A stretch of 32,291 nucleotides of DNA, taken from NCBI GenBank assembly GCA_031256895.1, contig JAIRPR010000205.1, positions 1-32,291 of the forward strand, read 5' to 3'. Within the stretch, counting starts at the first letter, position 1; each line of letters begins with the position of its first letter. The DNA is from Coriobacteriaceae bacterium (GTDB lineage Bacteria; Actinomycetota; Coriobacteriia; Coriobacteriales; Eggerthellaceae). The notes beneath the pieces were generated by a model, which worked only from the letters and a program-made list of their open reading frames with translations, searched no databases and had not been told where the DNA came from. Both the position numbers and the translations under genes were made by a program. This document shows, in pieces, positions 270 to 25,313 of this stretch.

Positions 270-533
270 TGTTCGCCCGCGCCCCCCCGCAACGCCCGGT
301 GCCCTTACACTTCGGTGTAGAAGGTGCCCGGCGATTGCAGGGGGCGCGAGGGTCGAGCGCGGCGTACACAAGGTACGTGAGCGCCCCCCGCAGCGCCCCT
401 CGCTCTGCCCGGCACCCTTACACTAAAGTAGAAGGTGCCCGGCGGTTGCAGGGGGCGCGAGGGTCGAGCGCGGCGTACACAAGGTACGTGAGCGAGCTTC
501 GCAGCGCCCCCTGTAACGCCCGGCACCTTCTAC
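270..533. repeat. Tandem palindromic repeat units between serA and leuA
   Basis: The gap holds two near-identical 67-nt direct repeats (317-383 and 428-494, one mismatch seen) inside units of about 110 nt, plus a degenerate half unit at about 270-316. The right unit is bounded by a perfect 12-nt inverted repeat, GTAGAAGGTGCC at 428-439 and GGCACCTTCTAC at 522-533. The centre carries CGTAC-N5-GTACG. On the minus strand the serA TAG stop forms the start of the right unit, and the other copies have TAA at the equivalent position. The transcript would fold into long GC-rich hairpins between serA and leuA. A related core lies after hydA at 26.4 kb. It could be a REP/MITE-like element or an RNA processing or stability signal; no tract of U that would mark a classical terminator is visible. 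Confidence 0.85.
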
Positions 534-2107: not shown

Positions 2108-2373
2108 GGGTCAAGCCTCCGTTCCGCCGCCAGGTCGGCAGCATGTTCTCACCGGGTAAAGCAACGCTGAGCTGTTGTCGCTCATACGTTGTCCCTTTTC
2201 TGTTGTACCTCATACCTTGTGCTTCCTGCGGTGCCTCATACCTTGTACCTCATACCTTGTGCTTCCTGCGGCGCAGGGTGTGCTTCCTGCGGTGCCTCAT
2301 GCAGTGCTTCCTGCGGCGCCGGATGCGCTTCCTGCGGCGCAGGATGCGCTTCCTGTGGCACGCTTCAGGGCAC
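2108..2373. repeat. Aminotransferase-serA spacer: degenerate short tandem repeats
   Basis: The 266-bp gap is mostly low-complexity repeats, read here on the plus strand. CCTCATACCTTGT occurs three times at about 2208-2260. GCTTCCTGCGGYGC or close variants occur about six times between 2221 and 2360. The array begins within roughly 10-15 nt of the stop codon of the upstream aminotransferase gene. The rest of the gap, about 2108-2185, holds the serA ribosome binding site and no obvious promoter. ORFs called here (for example 2297..2620 -) are products of the repeats and shadows. Confidence 0.8.
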
Positions 2374-3899: not shown

Positions 3900-4910
<1,011 letters not shown>

Positions 4911-5161
4911 CCTTTCCTTGGTTTGTGCCTGTGCGGAGCGGCTTATGCACTGGTAGGCGTTCTTCGCTGCCTTGCACACTGTCCTCGCGTTCCGTTCCTC
5001 ACACTGTCTTCCTCACGTTGTCCTGCACACACTGTCCTCATGTTTCAGTCCTCATGCTTCCTGCCTTCACGTTGCGTTCCTCACACTGTCTTCCTCACGT
5101 TGCGTTCCTCACGTTCCGTTCCTCATGCGTTCCTCACGTTGCGTTCCTCATGCTGTCCTCA
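4911..5161. repeat. ilvN-ilvC spacer: 14-nt degenerate tandem array
   Basis: About 180 nt (roughly 4980-5161) consist of a degenerate array. On the minus strand the unit is close to TGAGGAACGCAACG, 14 nt, with variants such as TGAGGAAGACAGTG and TGAGGACTGAAACA, in about a dozen copies. The first copy contains the ilvN stop codon, and GGAAGCATGAGGAC at the gene end recurs inside the array near 5055. Every unit carries a Shine-Dalgarno-like GAGGA. The remaining 4911-4980 holds the ilvC ribosome binding site. I see no terminator. Confidence 0.85.
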
Positions 5162-5644
5162 TGCTTCCTTGCTGTTGCGCGACATCGCTATCTTGCCGGT
5201 CCGGATTATCTCTTTGATGCCGTAGGCGCGGAAGAGGTCCTCCATGCCTCGCAGCTTGTTCTCGTCCCCTGTCGCCTCGATGGTGAGCGAGCTTCCGCCC
5301 ACATCAACTATCTTCGCGCGGAACACGTTCGCTATCTCGATTATCTCACCCCTTCGGTCAGGGGCTGCGCACACCTTGAACAGCACCAGCTCGCGCTCGA
5401 TCGCGGCATCGTTGGTGAGGTCGCTTATCTTGTGGACCGAGATGAGCTTGTGGAGCTGCTTGGTTATCTGCTCATAGGCCAGCTCATCGGCAGAGACGAT
5501 GGCCGTGACTCGCGACATCGTGGCGTCTTCCGTAGGCCCTACCGTGAGCGACTCTATGTTGAAGCCGCGCCGCGATATCAGGCCGGTCACCCGGCTCAGC
5601 ACGCCGGGCTTGTTCTCAACAAGGACCGAAAGCACATGCCTCAT
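5159..5644 (-). CDS. ilvN: Acetolactate synthase, regulatory (small) subunit
   Basis: This 161-residue protein is the regulatory subunit of acetohydroxyacid synthase, which raises activity of the large subunit and confers valine feedback inhibition. It opens with a typical ACT domain (MRHVLSVLVENKPGVLSRVTG, followed by RRGFNIESLTVGPTED) and ends with the ALS_ss_C-type domain (FRAKIVDVG, LTIEATGDENKL, ELAR-like helix, GIKEIIRTGKIAM). Length is normal for the IlvH/IlvN family. The ATG at 5644 has a strong AAAGGAGG about 6 nt upstream. It follows ilvB by 67 nt on the same strand. Its stop TGA is also the first bases of the tandem array in the spacer to ilvC. Confidence 0.95.
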   Translation of the reverse strand: MRHVLSVLVENKPGVLSRVTGLISRRGFNIESLTVGPTEDATMSRVTAIVSADELAYEQITKQLHKLISVHKISDLTNDAAIERELVLFKVCAAPDRRGEIIEIANVFRAKIVDVGGSSLTIEATGDENKLRGMEDLFRAYGIKEIIRTGKIAMSRNSKEA

Positions 5645-5711: not shown

Positions 5712-7639
<1,928 letters not shown>

Positions 7640-7643
<4 letters not shown>

Positions 7644-9346
7644 AACAGGATCGCCCCCTTGTCTGCAGAACTGACCTGCCGGGCATAGCGCGCCAGCACC
7701 CCTTGTGTGAAGCGGGGCTTTGGCGGGTGCCAGGCCTGCGCCCTTTGCGCCAGATCTTCTTCACTGACATCCAGACTCAACACGCCACCCTCGATGTCAA
7801 CCGTGATGTCATCGCCTTCCCTGACCAGGGCTAGAGGGCCGCCGACAGCAGCTTCGGGACTGACGTGCCCCACCGCAGGCCCTTTGGTGGCGCCCGAGAA
7901 GCGCCCGTCGGTGACCAAGGCCACCGAAGAGGAAAGCCCCCTGCCCACGATGGCCGAGGTGGGCGCAAGCATCTCGCGCATGCCGGGGCCGCCCCGCGGG
8001 CCTTCGTAGCGGATGACCACCACGTCGCCCGGCACGATGCGGCCTTCTCCGATAGCCGCACAGGCTGCTTCCTCGCTGTCGAACACCCGGGCAGGACCTG
8101 TGTGGCAAAGCATGGCGCCCGCAACGGCACCCTTCTTCACCACAGCGCCATCGGGGGCAAGGTTGCCCTTCAGCACCTTCAGGGCTCCTTGGGGCGAAAA
8201 GGGGTCGTCATGGCGGCGGCAGACCCGCGGATCGGCAGCAGGCCCGCTGTCGGGAAGCGACGAAACGTCAGGTGCAACAACTGTCGCCAGGTAGTCGGCA
8301 AGCGTTCCCACGCAGGTCTGGGCGTGCAGGTCGAGCAGGCCGAGCGCGGCCAATTCGCGCATCACCACCGGCACGCCCCCCGCCTCATGCAAGGCCAGAA
8401 GCGGAAGCGGGCCAGAAGGCTGGATCTTGACCAGATGAGGGGTCGCCTGGCTGACAGCCTCCCAATCGTCCAAGGTGATAGGATGCCCTGCCTCGGCGGC
8501 TATGGCGGTCAGGTGGAGAACCGTGTTCGTGGAGCCGCCAAAGGCCATGTCGCATTCCATGGCGTTATGGATGGCAGCAGGGCTTATGATGTCTTTCAGA
8601 CAGACGTCCTGCGCCAGAAGGGCCATCACCTTCTTCCCTGCCTGCTTTGCCAGGCGGATGCGCTGCGCATAGACAGCCGGTATGGTGCCGTTGCCCGGAA
8701 GCGCCACGCCCAAGGCCTCACAAAGGCAGTTCATCGAGTTCGCCGTGAACATGCCCGAGCAGCTTCCGCAGGTGGGGCATGCGGTCTCTTCGTAATAGCG
8801 CAGCTTGGCTTCATCCATAGTGCCTGCCGCGACCGCCGCCGCGCCATCGAAGAGGGTGTTGAGGTCGGTCGTTTCCGCCGTATCGCCGAAGCCCTTGCCT
8901 GGCAGCATGGGCCCGCCCGAACAGAAGACGGTGGGGATGTTCACCCGCAAGGCGCCCATCAGCATGCCCGGTACCACCTTGTCGCAGTTGGGTATGCATA
9001 CCATCGCGTCGAAACGGTGTGCGGCAACAGCGCATTCGAGCGAATCGGCGATCGCTTCGCGGGATGCCAGGGAATAATGCATCCCTTCGTGGTTCATGGC
9101 TATCCCGTCGCAGATGCCGATGGTGGAAAGCTCGAAGGGGATGCCGCCTGCCTGGTAGATGCCTGCCTTGACCGCCTCGGCTATGGCACCCAAGCCCAAG
9201 TGCCCGGGTATGATGTCGCTGCGGGAGCCCACCACCGCGACAAAGGGGCGGGCCATCTCGTCATCGGTAATGCCGCAGGCTTTGAGCAGGCTTCGGTGGG
9301 GGGCACGTGCAATGCCTTGCTTTATTGCTTCGCTTCTCATTCCCAT
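7640..9346 (-). CDS. ilvD: Dihydroxy-acid dehydratase
   Basis: IlvD dehydrates 2,3-dihydroxy acids to the 2-oxo acids that precede valine and isoleucine, using an iron-sulfur cluster. The 568-residue product has normal length for the IlvD/Edd family. It shows the N-terminal [12 protein letters not shown], the cluster cysteines in [13 protein letters not shown] and [15 protein letters not shown], the middle block [14 protein letters not shown], and the C-terminal [25 protein letters not shown]. It is the first structural gene after the T-box leader. The ATG at 9346 is preceded by AAGGAAGGAAAG; a second ATG two codons in (9340) is possible. It overlaps ilvB by 4 nt (ATGA). Confidence 0.96.
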
Positions 9347-10680: not shown

Positions 10681-12730
10681 GGGACGCCTCCTTGCGGGGT
10701 TCCTGGGTCATCGGCTCCACCTGGTAACGGGGGCACAGGCCGCAGGCCTCACAACTACCGAAAGAGCAATCCGGCGTGGTCTGCCCCAGGGCTGCCCGCT
10801 GCCGCTCGCGCCGCAAAAAGCCTGTCTCCACGCCGCAGTCTATGTGGCTCCAGGGTGGAATGAAGGCCGTGTCCCAGCTGCGCGAGGCTGCCTCAGCCGG
10901 TGTGAAGCCCAGCGTGACGGCAGCATCTTCCCAGGTTTGCGCATTGAAGCATTCCGACCAGGCGTCGAAACGGGCACCGCGCCTCCAAGCCCCCTCTATC
11001 CAGGCGGCACATTCGCGTCCGCCCCTGCTCAAGGCCGCCTCTATAAGGCTTGTGGCTGGATCGTGCCAGTTCACCGTGATGGCACGGTACTTCACCGAGG
11101 ACCGCAGCAGGTTCACACGCCGCATGGCCTCGTCAGGCGGTATCTGCCCGTCCCACTGGAAGGGGGTGTGCGGCTTGGGCACGAAAAGGGCGCAGGACAC
11201 GCTCATCTTGATGCTGCCGCGCATTCCGGGCGGCACCGCTTCACGCGCCCGGTCATATGCCCGTTGGGCCAAGCTTGCGATGCCCTTGACGTCATCGTCG
11301 GTCTCGGTGGGAAGCCCCAGCATGAAATAGAGCTTGCAATGGCGCCAACCGGCGGCAAAGGCTGCATCGATGGCATTGAACAGGTCGTCCTCGGTCACGT
11401 TCTTATTGATGACGTCGCGCAGGCGCTGGGTCCCCGCTTCGGGCGCAAAGGTCAGGCCCCCCTTCTTGCGGCCTGCCACCAGTCCGGCCATGCTGACCCC
11501 GAAGGCATCGAGGCGCTGCGAGGGGATGGATATGCGGATGCCCTTTCCCTCACACGCCTGGTTCAGACGGGTCAGGATAGCGGCTATCTGGGAATGGTCG
11601 GTGGTCGAAAGCGAGGTCAGGCTGACCTCGTCGTAGCCGGTGGCCTCAAGGCCTTCCAACACCGCAGACACGATCTGTTCAGCCGGCCGCTCCCGTACAG
11701 GGCGGTATATCATGCCAGCCTGGCAGAAGCGGCAGCCCCGGGTGCAGCCGCGCAGCACCTCGACATTCAGGCGGTCATGGACTGTTTCAATGAAGGGCAC
11801 CACACAGGGCTCCCAGGCGGGGCTTTGGGAGAATCCCGTGAAGATGCGCCGACGAAAGACCGGGACGGTGTCCCGGCTCAGGGTGTCCCGGCTCAGGGTG
11901 TCCTGGCGCGGGGCTTCCTGGCACGGGGCGTCCTGGCGCGGGGCTTCCCGGCTCAGGGCATCCTGGCGCGGAGCGGGCACAAGCCAAGTGCCGCGTGCCT
12001 GGGCCTCTTCTTGTCCCAAGCCGACATAGAGCGAGGGCACGTAGGTCCCCGGTACCAGCGCAAGCCTGCGCAAGGTATCAGCACGGCCCATGCCCGCCTG
12101 CTTGCAGCGGCGATGCTCGTGCAAGAGCTCAGGCACGGATTCCTCGCCTTCCCCCAAGGAAAAAGCATCAAAGAACAGATGGAAGGGCTCAGGGTTGTAG
12201 GCGACCGGCCCGCCCCCGATGACCAGGGGGTGGCTATCGTCTCGGTCGGCGGCATGGAGCGGGATGCCTGCCAGGTCAAGCACCTCTAGAATGTTGCTTG
12301 CCACCAGTTCGTGCGACAGGGTGATGCCCAATGCGTCGAACTGCGCCAATGGTGCGCAGCCTTCGAGCGAGAAAAGGGGAAGCCCTTCTTGGCGCATCAG
12401 GTCGCAGAAGTCAGGTGCGGGAAGGAAGGCACGTTCGGCCGACATGCCCTCTTGGGCGTTGACCGCTTTGCACAGTATCCGGAGCGCCTGGTTCGGCTGG
12501 CCGAGCTCGTAGGTGTCCGGATAAACCATGCAGAACCGGTAGACCCCTGGCACGGGGGCCGACATGCCCGAAGCCGTTATCGAGGCCCCAAGACCAAGGT
12601 CAGGCGTTGCAGGTTCCCGATAGGAAGTCCCCGGCACCGGGGCGGTAGCCCCCCATTCGTGATTGATATAGCGCGCAGGCCTTTCGGCCTGCGCGAGAAG
12701 CCGGGCAAGGCGCGGCCAGAGGTCGGTCAT
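10673..12730 (-). CDS. B12-binding-type radical SAM protein, TIGR03960 family
   Basis: A protein of about 685 residues of the TIGR03960 family. The N-terminal B12-binding-like region runs from VYRFCMVYPDTYELGQPNQALRIL to LVIGGGPVAYNPEPF. The radical SAM core starts with LNVEVLRGCTRGCRFCQAG, whose CxxxCxxC binds the [4Fe-4S] cluster that cleaves SAM. The C-terminus has the typical CSFGSCEACGLCPRY cysteine cluster. The track start at 12748 is GTG. The ATG at 12730 is better because GAAGGGAAGG lies 6 nt upstream. Before the core there is an in-frame expansion of five-residue units (RQDAL, SREAP, RQDAP and so on). The substrate is unknown. It follows the DUF697 gene and is coupled to the DUF2344 gene. 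Confidence 0.88.
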   Translation of the reverse strand: MTDLWPRLARLLAQAERPARYINHEWGATAPVPGTSYREPATPDLGLGASITASGMSAPVPGVYRFCMVYPDTYELGQPNQALRILCKAVNAQEGMSAERAFLPAPDFCDLMRQEGLPLFSLEGCAPLAQFDALGITLSHELVASNILEVLDLAGIPLHAADRDDSHPLVIGGGPVAYNPEPFHLFFDAFSLGEGEESVPELLHEHRRCKQAGMGRADTLRRLALVPGTYVPSLYVGLGQEEAQARGTWLVPAPRQDALSREAPRQDAPCQEAPRQDTLSRDTLSRDTVPVFRRRIFTGFSQSPAWEPCVVPFIETVHDRLNVEVLRGCTRGCRFCQAGMIYRPVRERPAEQIVSAVLEGLEATGYDEVSLTSLSTTDHSQIAAILTRLNQACEGKGIRISIPSQRLDAFGVSMAGLVAGRKKGGLTFAPEAGTQRLRDVINKNVTEDDLFNAIDAAFAAGWRHCKLYFMLGLPTETDDDVKGIASLAQRAYDRAREAVPPGMRGSIKMSVSCALFVPKPHTPFQWDGQIPPDEAMRRVNLLRSSVKYRAITVNWHDPATSLIEAALSRGGRECAAWIEGAWRRGARFDAWSECFNAQTWEDAAVTLGFTPAEAASRSWDTAFIPPWSHIDCGVETGFLRRERQRAALGQTTPDCSFGSCEACGLCPRYQVEPMTQEPRKEASHE
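11862..11976 (-). repeat. In-frame 15-nt repeats in the radical SAM gene
   Basis: About seven 15-nt units (plus-strand forms GGTGTCCCGGCTCAG and GGCTTCCTGGCGCGG) encode RQDAL/SREAP-type pentapeptides between the N-terminal domain and the radical SAM core. The frame is kept, and the insert lies in what should be an interdomain linker. Confidence 0.85.
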
Positions 12731-12744
12731 CGGGCGCCTTCCCT

Positions 12745-13998
12745 TCACATGCCGGGGGTGGGGCCTGAGGCCTTATGTGTCAATTGGGCACCGATTGATT
12801 GGGCCTTCGCCAAGGCCTGAGCGACAAACGGCTGTTCTAAAACCGTTCCCGCAATGCAAAGTGCCTTGTTGCGCACCTTGGCCATCGCTGGAGGAAGCCC
12901 TTCGGGCGAACCGCCCCTCTCGAAGTACTCGATAGCGGCAAATCCCATGGCCAAGGTGCCGCTGAAGCCGACCCCTGCCTTGATGACCCAGCCCAATGCC
13001 GGAACGAAGGCCACCAGCTGCCGGGCAAGGCTTCGGCAGACGAACGCCCCACCTATCACCACGGCAAGCTCCTTCGCCCGCGCAAGCGACATCTCCTGCC
13101 CATAGGCCGCTGCCACCTGCAGCAGCATCTTTGCCTGGTTCAAGGTCATGACCGGGAGGTCTGCCCCCGGAAGGAACGCGACGAAGCCGATCCCCGCGTT
13201 CTGGAGTGCGGTCGATATGACCGCCTCAGCCGAAAGGGGCCTCACGACGAAGGGGAACGCCTGGGCAAAGGCAAGGCGTTTCGCCTTGCAGGCCGCGATG
13301 ACCCATTCCCCCATGCGCTTCTCAAGCGAAGCCTCTAAGGCCTCGTTCAGCAGGTAGGGCTCTGCCTGGTCGTTTGTGCGCCTTCCGGGCGCCACAGGGC
13401 TTCCGGGTGCCACAGGGCTTCCGGGCGCCACAGGGCTTTCGGGCGCCACAGGGCTTCCGGGCGCCTCAGGTTCGCAGGCGGCAACGGGTACCCGGGCATG
13501 CTGAGGCCTACGGCCTGGCACCTGATGGGACCCCCTGCGTGGGTCAAGGAGAGGCGCAAGGATGGATGCGCTTCCTGCTGTCGGCTGCCTTGACGCATTC
13601 TGGGCCCTCAGGTCGGGCGCGAGCACGTCTGCAGGAGGCAGCACGGTGCCTGCCGCTTGGGCGATAGCGCTCACCAGGCTGGGCATGGTGGTGACCACCA
13701 TGACCGGTACCCCTGCCTCGCGCAGGAGCGCTGCGTGGGCGCCCACCTGTTCGTTGAAGCCTGCAACAATGACGGCCATGTCTGATTCCGGGAACACCGG
13801 CAAGGCAGAACGCGAGAAATACCGCGCAATGACCTGCGCATAGGGCGATGGGCTGGTGAACACCCTGCCTATCAGGGCAACCAGGTCATCCGGGGCGGTC
13901 TCGTCCAGGTACACGCTGACCACCAGGCTGGTGGTGCGTGCCTTCTCGATATCGGTCGCCTCATCTATGACGGCCTTCACGTCCAAGGGGATCTGCAT
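12745..13998 (-). CDS. DUF697 family protein with degenerate GTPase-like N-terminus
   Basis: About 417 residues. The C-terminal half matches the DUF697 pattern (FLPGADLPVMTLNQAKMLLQVAAAYGQ, then AKELAVVIGGAFVCRSLARQL and ALGWVIKAGVGFSGTLAMG), with two or three hydrophobic helices. The N-terminal half has a Rossmann-like run (SDMAVIVAGFNEQ, VPVMVVTTMPS) but no Walker A motif, so it resembles a GTPase domain without nucleotide-binding residues. Between them lies an in-frame APGSPV repeat. The TTG start in the track (14043) is unlikely. ATG at 13998 follows AGAGAGAAGG with good spacing. It sits between rodA and the radical SAM gene in the mre cluster. Function unknown; a membrane-associated scaffold is possible. 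Confidence 0.75.
   Translation of the reverse strand: MQIPLDVKAVIDEATDIEKARTTSLVVSVYLDETAPDDLVALIGRVFTSPSPYAQVIARYFSRSALPVFPESDMAVIVAGFNEQVGAHAALLREAGVPVMVVTTMPSLVSAIAQAAGTVLPPADVLAPDLRAQNASRQPTAGSASILAPLLDPRRGSHQVPGRRPQHARVPVAACEPEAPGSPVAPESPVAPGSPVAPGSPVAPGRRTNDQAEPYLLNEALEASLEKRMGEWVIAACKAKRLAFAQAFPFVVRPLSAEAVISTALQNAGIGFVAFLPGADLPVMTLNQAKMLLQVAAAYGQEMSLARAKELAVVIGGAFVCRSLARQLVAFVPALGWVIKAGVGFSGTLAMGFAAIEYFERGGSPEGLPPAMAKVRNKALCIAGTVLEQPFVAQALAKAQSIGAQLTHKASGPTPGM
13384..13466 (-). repeat. In-frame 18-nt repeats in the DUF697 gene
   Basis: Four to five near-perfect 18-nt units (plus strand GGGCGCCACAGGGCTTCC) encode APGSPV-type hexapeptides in the linker between the two halves of the protein. 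The low divergence between units suggests recent expansion. Confidence 0.88.
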
Positions 13999-25084: not shown

Positions 25085-25313
25085 GATTATTCCTTCCTTC
25101 AATCCACACAATCAAATAGACACACATCTATTGAGACGAGTTCATGCTATCACAAAATGAATTACTTCATAGCGGATTCATGAATTCCTCAAACGTAGTC
25201 TATCCCTGGTTGTTGGGCGTTAAATCGCGTTAAATCGCGTTAAATCGCGTTTCAACTGCAGCACTAGGGGTTGTAAGAAGGTTGTTAGCAGTTTGTTAGC
25301 CGACCTTCACAGG
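25085..25313. repeat. Regulatory gap with three 10-nt direct repeats
   Basis: The leader of the secreted-protein gene contains GCGTTAAATC three times in perfect tandem plus a partial fourth (25217-25251), a spacing of about one helical turn. Just after the regulator gene stop there is a second short repeat, TTGTTAGC twice about 11 nt apart (near 25280-25300). A 10-nt palindrome ATTCATGAAT lies near 25180. A possible promoter is TTGAGG with TATGAA 15 nt downstream on the minus strand, but this is weak. Confidence 0.75.

Follow-up and report, generated by a model that had tools for sequence, protein, structure and literature searches.

A tandem array that begins at the ilvN stop codon in an Eggerthellaceae genus rich in intergenic repeats

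In the draft genome analyzed here, the genes ilvN and ilvC are separated by a tandem array of 14 short units, the first of which opens with the stop codon of ilvN. We consider it likely that the array is a private intergenic minisatellite produced by repeated local tandem duplication, in a genus that runs or tolerates this process at about ten times the level of its family. The array itself is an ordinary kind of repeat within a remarkable genomic setting. We analyzed a 32,291-nt stretch of DNA (the window), which is contig C176 of a draft genome of 2.36 Mb in 224 contigs that is 77.5% complete. Relatives of its ilvN gene place the genome in the Eggerthellaceae, with 91% identity to Raoultibacter timonensis and 89% to Gordonibacter sp. 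An230.

Structure and origin of the ilvN-ilvC array

The array lies on the minus strand in the order ilvD, ilvB, ilvN, array, ilvC. Both ilvN and ilvB are intact. The features discussed below are as follows.

7640-9346, minus strand: ilvD
5712-7643, minus strand: ilvB
5159-5644, minus strand: ilvN, acetolactate synthase small subunit (NCBIfam NF008864, 1.2e-65; TIGR00119)
5159-5161, minus strand: ilvN stop codon TGA, inside ATGA, the opening triplet of unit 1 (sequence)
4977-5161, minus strand: the tandem array, built of 14 units that measure 11, 14 or 15 nt, with the consensus TGAGGAACGCAACG (TRF, unit spacing and unit alignment)
5101-5161, minus strand: stop-proximal and best kept part of the array, with 2.4 copies of a (14+11)-nt block at 91% matches (TRF period 25)
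4943-5162, minus strand: nine predicted mini-ORFs in a chain, each linked to the next through a 4-nt ATGA/GTGA overlap; the first opens at the ATGA of the ilvN stop codon and the last closes with a TAA (computed reading)
4899-4976, minus strand: unrepeated rest of the ilvN-ilvC spacer with the ilvC ribosome-binding region (sequence)
3900-4898, minus strand: ilvC, ketol-acid reductoisomerase, broken by an in-frame TAG (NCBIfam NF004017 on both pieces)
2203-2359, minus strand: another pair of intercistronic arrays (periods 14 and 21), in the gap that separates serA from an aminotransferase gene (TRF and gene map)
276-527, minus strand: period-111 array starting 2 nt past the serA stop (TRF and gene map)

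A preliminary description of the window had proposed that a tandem array of a dozen or so 14-nt units fills the ilvN-ilvC spacer from 4911 to 5161. TRF recovered the array in overlapping calls between 4982 and 5161, with periods of 14 (6.2 copies), 25 and 28. Counted from the T of the ilvN TGA, the units start at nt 0, 11, 25, 36, 50, 64, 78, 92, 107, 121, 132, 146, 160 and 174. Their spacing is mixed, at 11 or 14 nt and once at 15 nt. The array does start at the stop codon (5161), but it ends near 4977 rather than 4911, and the final 78 nt ahead of ilvC are unrepeated. The 11-nt units correspond to the consensus TGAGGAACGCAACG with a recurrent 3-nt deletion. The part nearest ilvC is the most diverged (TRF period 28 at 4982-5112, 67% matches). 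The word GAGGA, described as present in every unit, occurs in 12 of the 14; the two exceptions read TGAAGG and TGTGCAGGA.

Dinucleotide-matched simulated noncoding DNA gave 0-1 arrays per sample at the same threshold. Because simulated DNA yields essentially no arrays, the ilvN-ilvC array is not a product of chance, and the central claim of a tandem array in this spacer stands. Its head-to-tail units, within the range of 10-100 nt and beyond chance expectation, are those of a tandem minisatellite. Three TGAGGA words at the spacing of the array were found at no other locus in the draft genome, two congeners and three other genomes of the family.

We scanned 76 ilvN-ilvC spacers, with lengths of up to a few hundred nt, using TRF at a score of 40. 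Besides the window's own, arrays were called in three records only (L010 and the pair L026/L112, apparently the same spacer twice), and these are minor, two-copy repeats unrelated to the window array. The near-absence of arrays in related spacers indicates that the window array is lineage-specific, within a spacer that is otherwise variable.

The preliminary description suggested that the array grew from the 3' end of ilvN and cited a gene-end word that reappears inside it. Only about 8 nt of the repeated word GGAAGCATGAGGAC are ilvN coding sequence. When the last 30 nt of ilvN were aligned locally with the array, 54 of 413 gene tails from the same genome matched as well or better. The word is therefore not significant and is no proof of a duplication of coding sequence. 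What points to an origin from the gene's own end at ilvN is the stop codon, with which the first unit opens; the preliminary description had placed it in that unit. At other loci the process is easier to see. A coding tail with its stop is clearly duplicated at L205, and coding tail plus stop is repeated as a 38-nt unit at L136, a 24-nt unit at L151, a 12-nt unit at L144 and a 7-nt unit, GGAATAA, at L209. Growth from a gene's 3' end is thus clear elsewhere and is not demonstrated for ilvN.

Codon 85 of ilvC is an in-frame TAG (4644-4646), and all related ilvC genes of the family have Glu at this position. The gene is present in a single copy in the draft genome. Two same-genus genomes gave no ilvC match and only distant ilvN matches. 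The TAG may reflect either a branched-chain pathway that is decaying in the genus or an error in the draft. Should the interruption be genuine, little would remain for an ilvC-serving device to support.

Tandem arrays across the genus

The sample comprised 604 kb of the window's own genome (about a quarter), 200 kb apiece from two congeners and a further 386 kb drawn from 14 other genera of the family. Arrays were called with TRF, and genes with a codon-usage script whose calls were inspected on the window; with so simple a script, starts are less sure than stops. Intergenic arrays numbered 1.16 per kb of noncoding DNA in the window's own genome, 1.02 and 0.86 in the congeners, and 0.12 in the 14 other genera pooled. 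They occupied 12.9% of gap DNA in the own genome, 6.1 and 4.5% in the congeners, and 0.8% in the other genera. Their units are largely private, as 98 of 106 intergenic arrays had no similar sequence elsewhere in the sample. That only eight resemble other sequence indicates that the arrays arose in place. One exception to this privacy is a 10-nt repeat, GCGTTAAATC (35 nt), that is identical at 25217-25251 of the window and 8125-8159 of L214.

We found no replication or repair defect specific to the genus among the genes tested (MutS1, NucS, RecJ and SbcD) across 33 Eggerthellaceae genomes. MutS1 had no match in any of the 33. NucS had at most a weak partial match, in five genomes, none of them of the window's genus. 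RecJ was present in all 33, and canonical SbcD occurred in a few scattered genomes, uncorrelated with array density. From these gene searches, the family seems to be without both known mismatch repair systems, MutS1 and NucS. We rejected mismatch repair loss as the cause of the excess in this genus because the absence of MutS is common to the whole family. A search of the accessible literature on intergenic repeats of Coriobacteriia found nothing relevant.

Array periods obey the reading frame in coding DNA. The 173 coding arrays have periods with remainders of 0, 1 and 2 modulo 3 in 168, 2 and 3 cases; for the 155 intergenic periods the counts are 67, 51 and 37. The window contributes two in-frame repeats to these genus-wide multiples-of-three coding arrays, one of period 18 at 13382-13470 in a gene without a Pfam match and one of period 15/30 at 11867-11971 in a radical SAM gene. 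A period-36 tandem repeat also occurs in ilvB (7466-7551), within an N-terminal extension of about 59 residues that precedes the family-model match.

Array density per kb was highest in convergent gaps (1.96), followed by same-strand (1.28) and divergent gaps (0.52). Stop triplets were covered by 24 arrays and start triplets by 4, with TGA, TAA and TAG all represented among the stops. The preliminary description had proposed comparing arrays near stops with arrays elsewhere in gaps. Among the 82 arrays contained entirely in same-strand gaps of the sample, 18 begin no more than 15 nt from the upstream stop, where 10.3 were expected (p 0.007, treating arrays as independent, as do the other p values for array positions). 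This enrichment persisted (p 0.02-0.04) with 40-80 nt ahead of the next gene excluded. Convergent gaps showed no excess of array starts near the stop. A looser count (28 of 92 within 15 nt, 11.8 expected) was discarded as too generous, since it included arrays entering coding DNA. The array pair at 2203-2359 of the window lies 14 nt from its upstream stop.

The stop codon itself is repeated within the unit in at least ten other arrays, and many of the 24 stop-covering arrays show it again in the following unit, with examples of TGA, TAA and TAG. The arrangement named in the title of the preliminary description, a unit containing the preceding stop, therefore generalizes. In some stop-covering arrays the stop is a change inside a coding repeat, for example TAG versus GAG in L207. 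A stop that recurs in the unit and a stop that arises within a coding repeat are thus two routes to the same picture.

Two further arrays fill intercistronic gaps. At L132 (4354-4531), an array of ~13-nt units (TGACGGAGCAACG), located through a search for arrays sharing AACGTGA, fills the whole gap from the upstream TGA, between genes for a TetR-type regulator and a DUF5692 protein. At L141 (1031-1187), a purine-rich array of the CGAAGGA type starts at the upstream TAA and fills the spacer from a glutamine amidotransferase gene to an anthranilate phosphoribosyltransferase-like gene, probably trpG and trpD.

Neutral duplication and alternative readings

Under local duplication, units would be gained by replication slippage or unequal exchange. 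A duplication at or straddling a stop codon would leave the gene whole, since the first copy retains the stop and extra copies fall beyond it. In coding DNA only duplications of a multiple of three nt would persist, and close to starts and promoters duplications would be removed. Tolerance at stops combined with removal at starts and promoters would leave surviving arrays that often begin at stops and carry the stop in their unit. The position tests indicate that the association with stops is mostly as tolerance predicts, with a modest residue left. We infer the duplication mechanism and its neutrality from these patterns, and neutral slippage is the best supported of the three readings offered in the preliminary description.

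Some observations count against pure neutrality. The TGAGGA core has changed less than the remainder of the unit, with 3 of 27 substitutions in 6 of the 14 unit positions. In simulated neutral arrays, core conservation had a p of 0.007-0.024 for a prespecified block and 0.07-0.23 for any block. The argument is weakened accordingly, because neutral simulation yields some such block in 7-23% of runs. The residual same-strand excess at stops (p 0.02-0.04) also suggests that tolerance alone is not the full explanation. One could propose that the duplication process is focused on gene 3' ends, perhaps linked to termination of transcription or translation, and that the ilvN TGAGGA core, a stop plus Shine-Dalgarno sequence, was selected as a ladder of translated mini-ORFs. 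We hold this combination to be quite unlikely.

The array could also be read as a termination-reinitiation ladder. Ribosomes leaving ilvN would restart at ATGA and hop along mini-ORFs, each helped by a Shine-Dalgarno-like GAGGA 4-7 nt ahead of the following start. Translation would thereby continue through the spacer and shield it from Rho and RNases, and ribosomes would be carried towards ilvC. The nine predicted overlap-joined mini-ORFs span 216 of the 260 spacer nt, and most starts have an AGGA word 4-7 nt ahead of them. It is established that ribosomes can reinitiate at overlaps of 4 nt (PMC10666635), and the relative conservation of the TGAGGA core also favors this reading. In the own genome, nine same-strand gaps contain at least three links, versus 4.5 with swapped spacers. 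However, such a chain is automatic for any period of 2 mod 3 over NTGA, and intergenic periods show no excess of this class (37 of 155). The L132 array, which fills its gap from a stop, has a period outside the 2 mod 3 class, so the ladder register does not hold generally, and the genome has no second TGAGGA array. Moreover, the TAA that closes the chain leaves about 44 nt to ilvC, whereas translational coupling was nearly abolished by about 20 nt in reporter data (PMC10666635). Spacing typical of coupled genes (a 4-nt or 1-nt overlap or a very short distance) is present along the mini-ORF chain and absent at the step into ilvC, a target gene that is itself interrupted. The preliminary description had pointed to a ladder of Shine-Dalgarno-like sites ahead of ilvC. 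As a general feature such a ladder is not supported: Shine-Dalgarno words in the units are no commoner than in composition-matched shuffles. We likewise dropped genus-wide Shine-Dalgarno ladders as a candidate, as a sense-strand excess of these words in arrays (96:28) vanishes against composition-matched unit shuffles. On balance, a ladder at ilvN is unlikely. RNA of the spacer has unusually little structure (z +2.8), which speaks for a ladder and contradicts a stem-loop version of the 3'-end protection element suggested at the outset: 200 of 200 shuffles fold better. No Rfam family reached the gathering threshold in the window.

Three other explanations appear less probable still. A variable-number regulatory repeat, whose unit number would tune or phase-vary the downstream gene as reported for some M. 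tuberculosis repeat spacers, would sit in the same kind of place as this array. Repeat length at rnc-fpg1 correlates with fpg1 mRNA (PMC2734929), and the copy number of promoter repeats differs within populations (PMC12817950). With the downstream ilvC interrupted, and with arrays scarce in divergent gaps, where promoters sit, we find this role very unlikely. An assembly artifact or chimera might be suspected in a draft of 224 contigs and 77.5% completeness with an in-frame TAG in ilvC. However, the units differ among themselves, the array is short, the flanking ilvN and ilvB are intact and two other assemblies of the genus have the same array density, which makes an artifact highly improbable. 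Finally, the NTGA overlap at the array boundary resembles the 4-nt coupled arrangement of MIRUs (PMC12548453) and could suggest a mobile repeat family of that kind inserted at stop/start overlaps. We give this almost no credence, given that 98 of 106 arrays are private and that the draft genome contains the TGAGGA array at a single locus.

We therefore favor local, probably neutral duplication. In the three draft genomes, where intergenic arrays are about ten times as dense as in the family, the frame rule can be seen together with the stop/start asymmetry. This setting shows why stop-containing arrays should be common without a function, and the clade lends itself to asking how the rate of tandem duplication is set in bacteria that lack MutS.

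Comparison with described repeat systems

The preliminary description knew of no matching system. Intercistronic MIRU and VNTR arrays have in fact been described, and the closest cases are the mycobacterial MIRUs (PMC12548453) and the rnc-fpg1 repeat spacer (PMC2734929). Like the ilvN array, MIRUs (at senX3-regX3 and elsewhere) are operon-spacer repeats at an ATGA-like stop/start overlap and can be read as coupled short ORFs. The ilvN array shares the overlap with the upstream gene, in the ATGA at the ilvN stop. It differs in the gap of about 44 nt between its last mini-ORF and ilvC, whereas a MIRU ORF overlaps the coupled gene start by 4 nt. MIRUs are 40-100 nt long and form one dispersed, apparently mobile family with homologous copies at many loci, whereas the ilvN array has units of 11-15 nt that are private to its locus.

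At rnc-fpg1 in the M. tuberculosis complex (ETR-F/VNTR3239), a spacer that measures a few bp in related strains or species has grown into a direct-repeat array of ~300 bp between same-strand genes, which is comparable to the ilvN-ilvC spacer. That array differs in that it starts 40 bp past the stop, has 55/79-bp units and has a length that correlates with expression.

Repeat-rich intergenic DNA has been reported in other prokaryotes. Portiera of Bemisia tabaci and relatives shows a clade-specific repeat burst with enlarged spacers (PMC7821994), and in this it resembles the window's genus. The burst in this endosymbiont is linked to loss of dnaQ, whereas the window's genus has no specific loss among MutS1, NucS, RecJ and SbcD. 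In the archaea Methanococcus voltae, M. aeolicus and Natrialba magadii, tandem repeats of 6-11 bp are over-represented in intergenic but not coding DNA (PMC4060949). These organisms are unrelated to the window's genus, where most units are longer and arrays are frequent in coding DNA as well.
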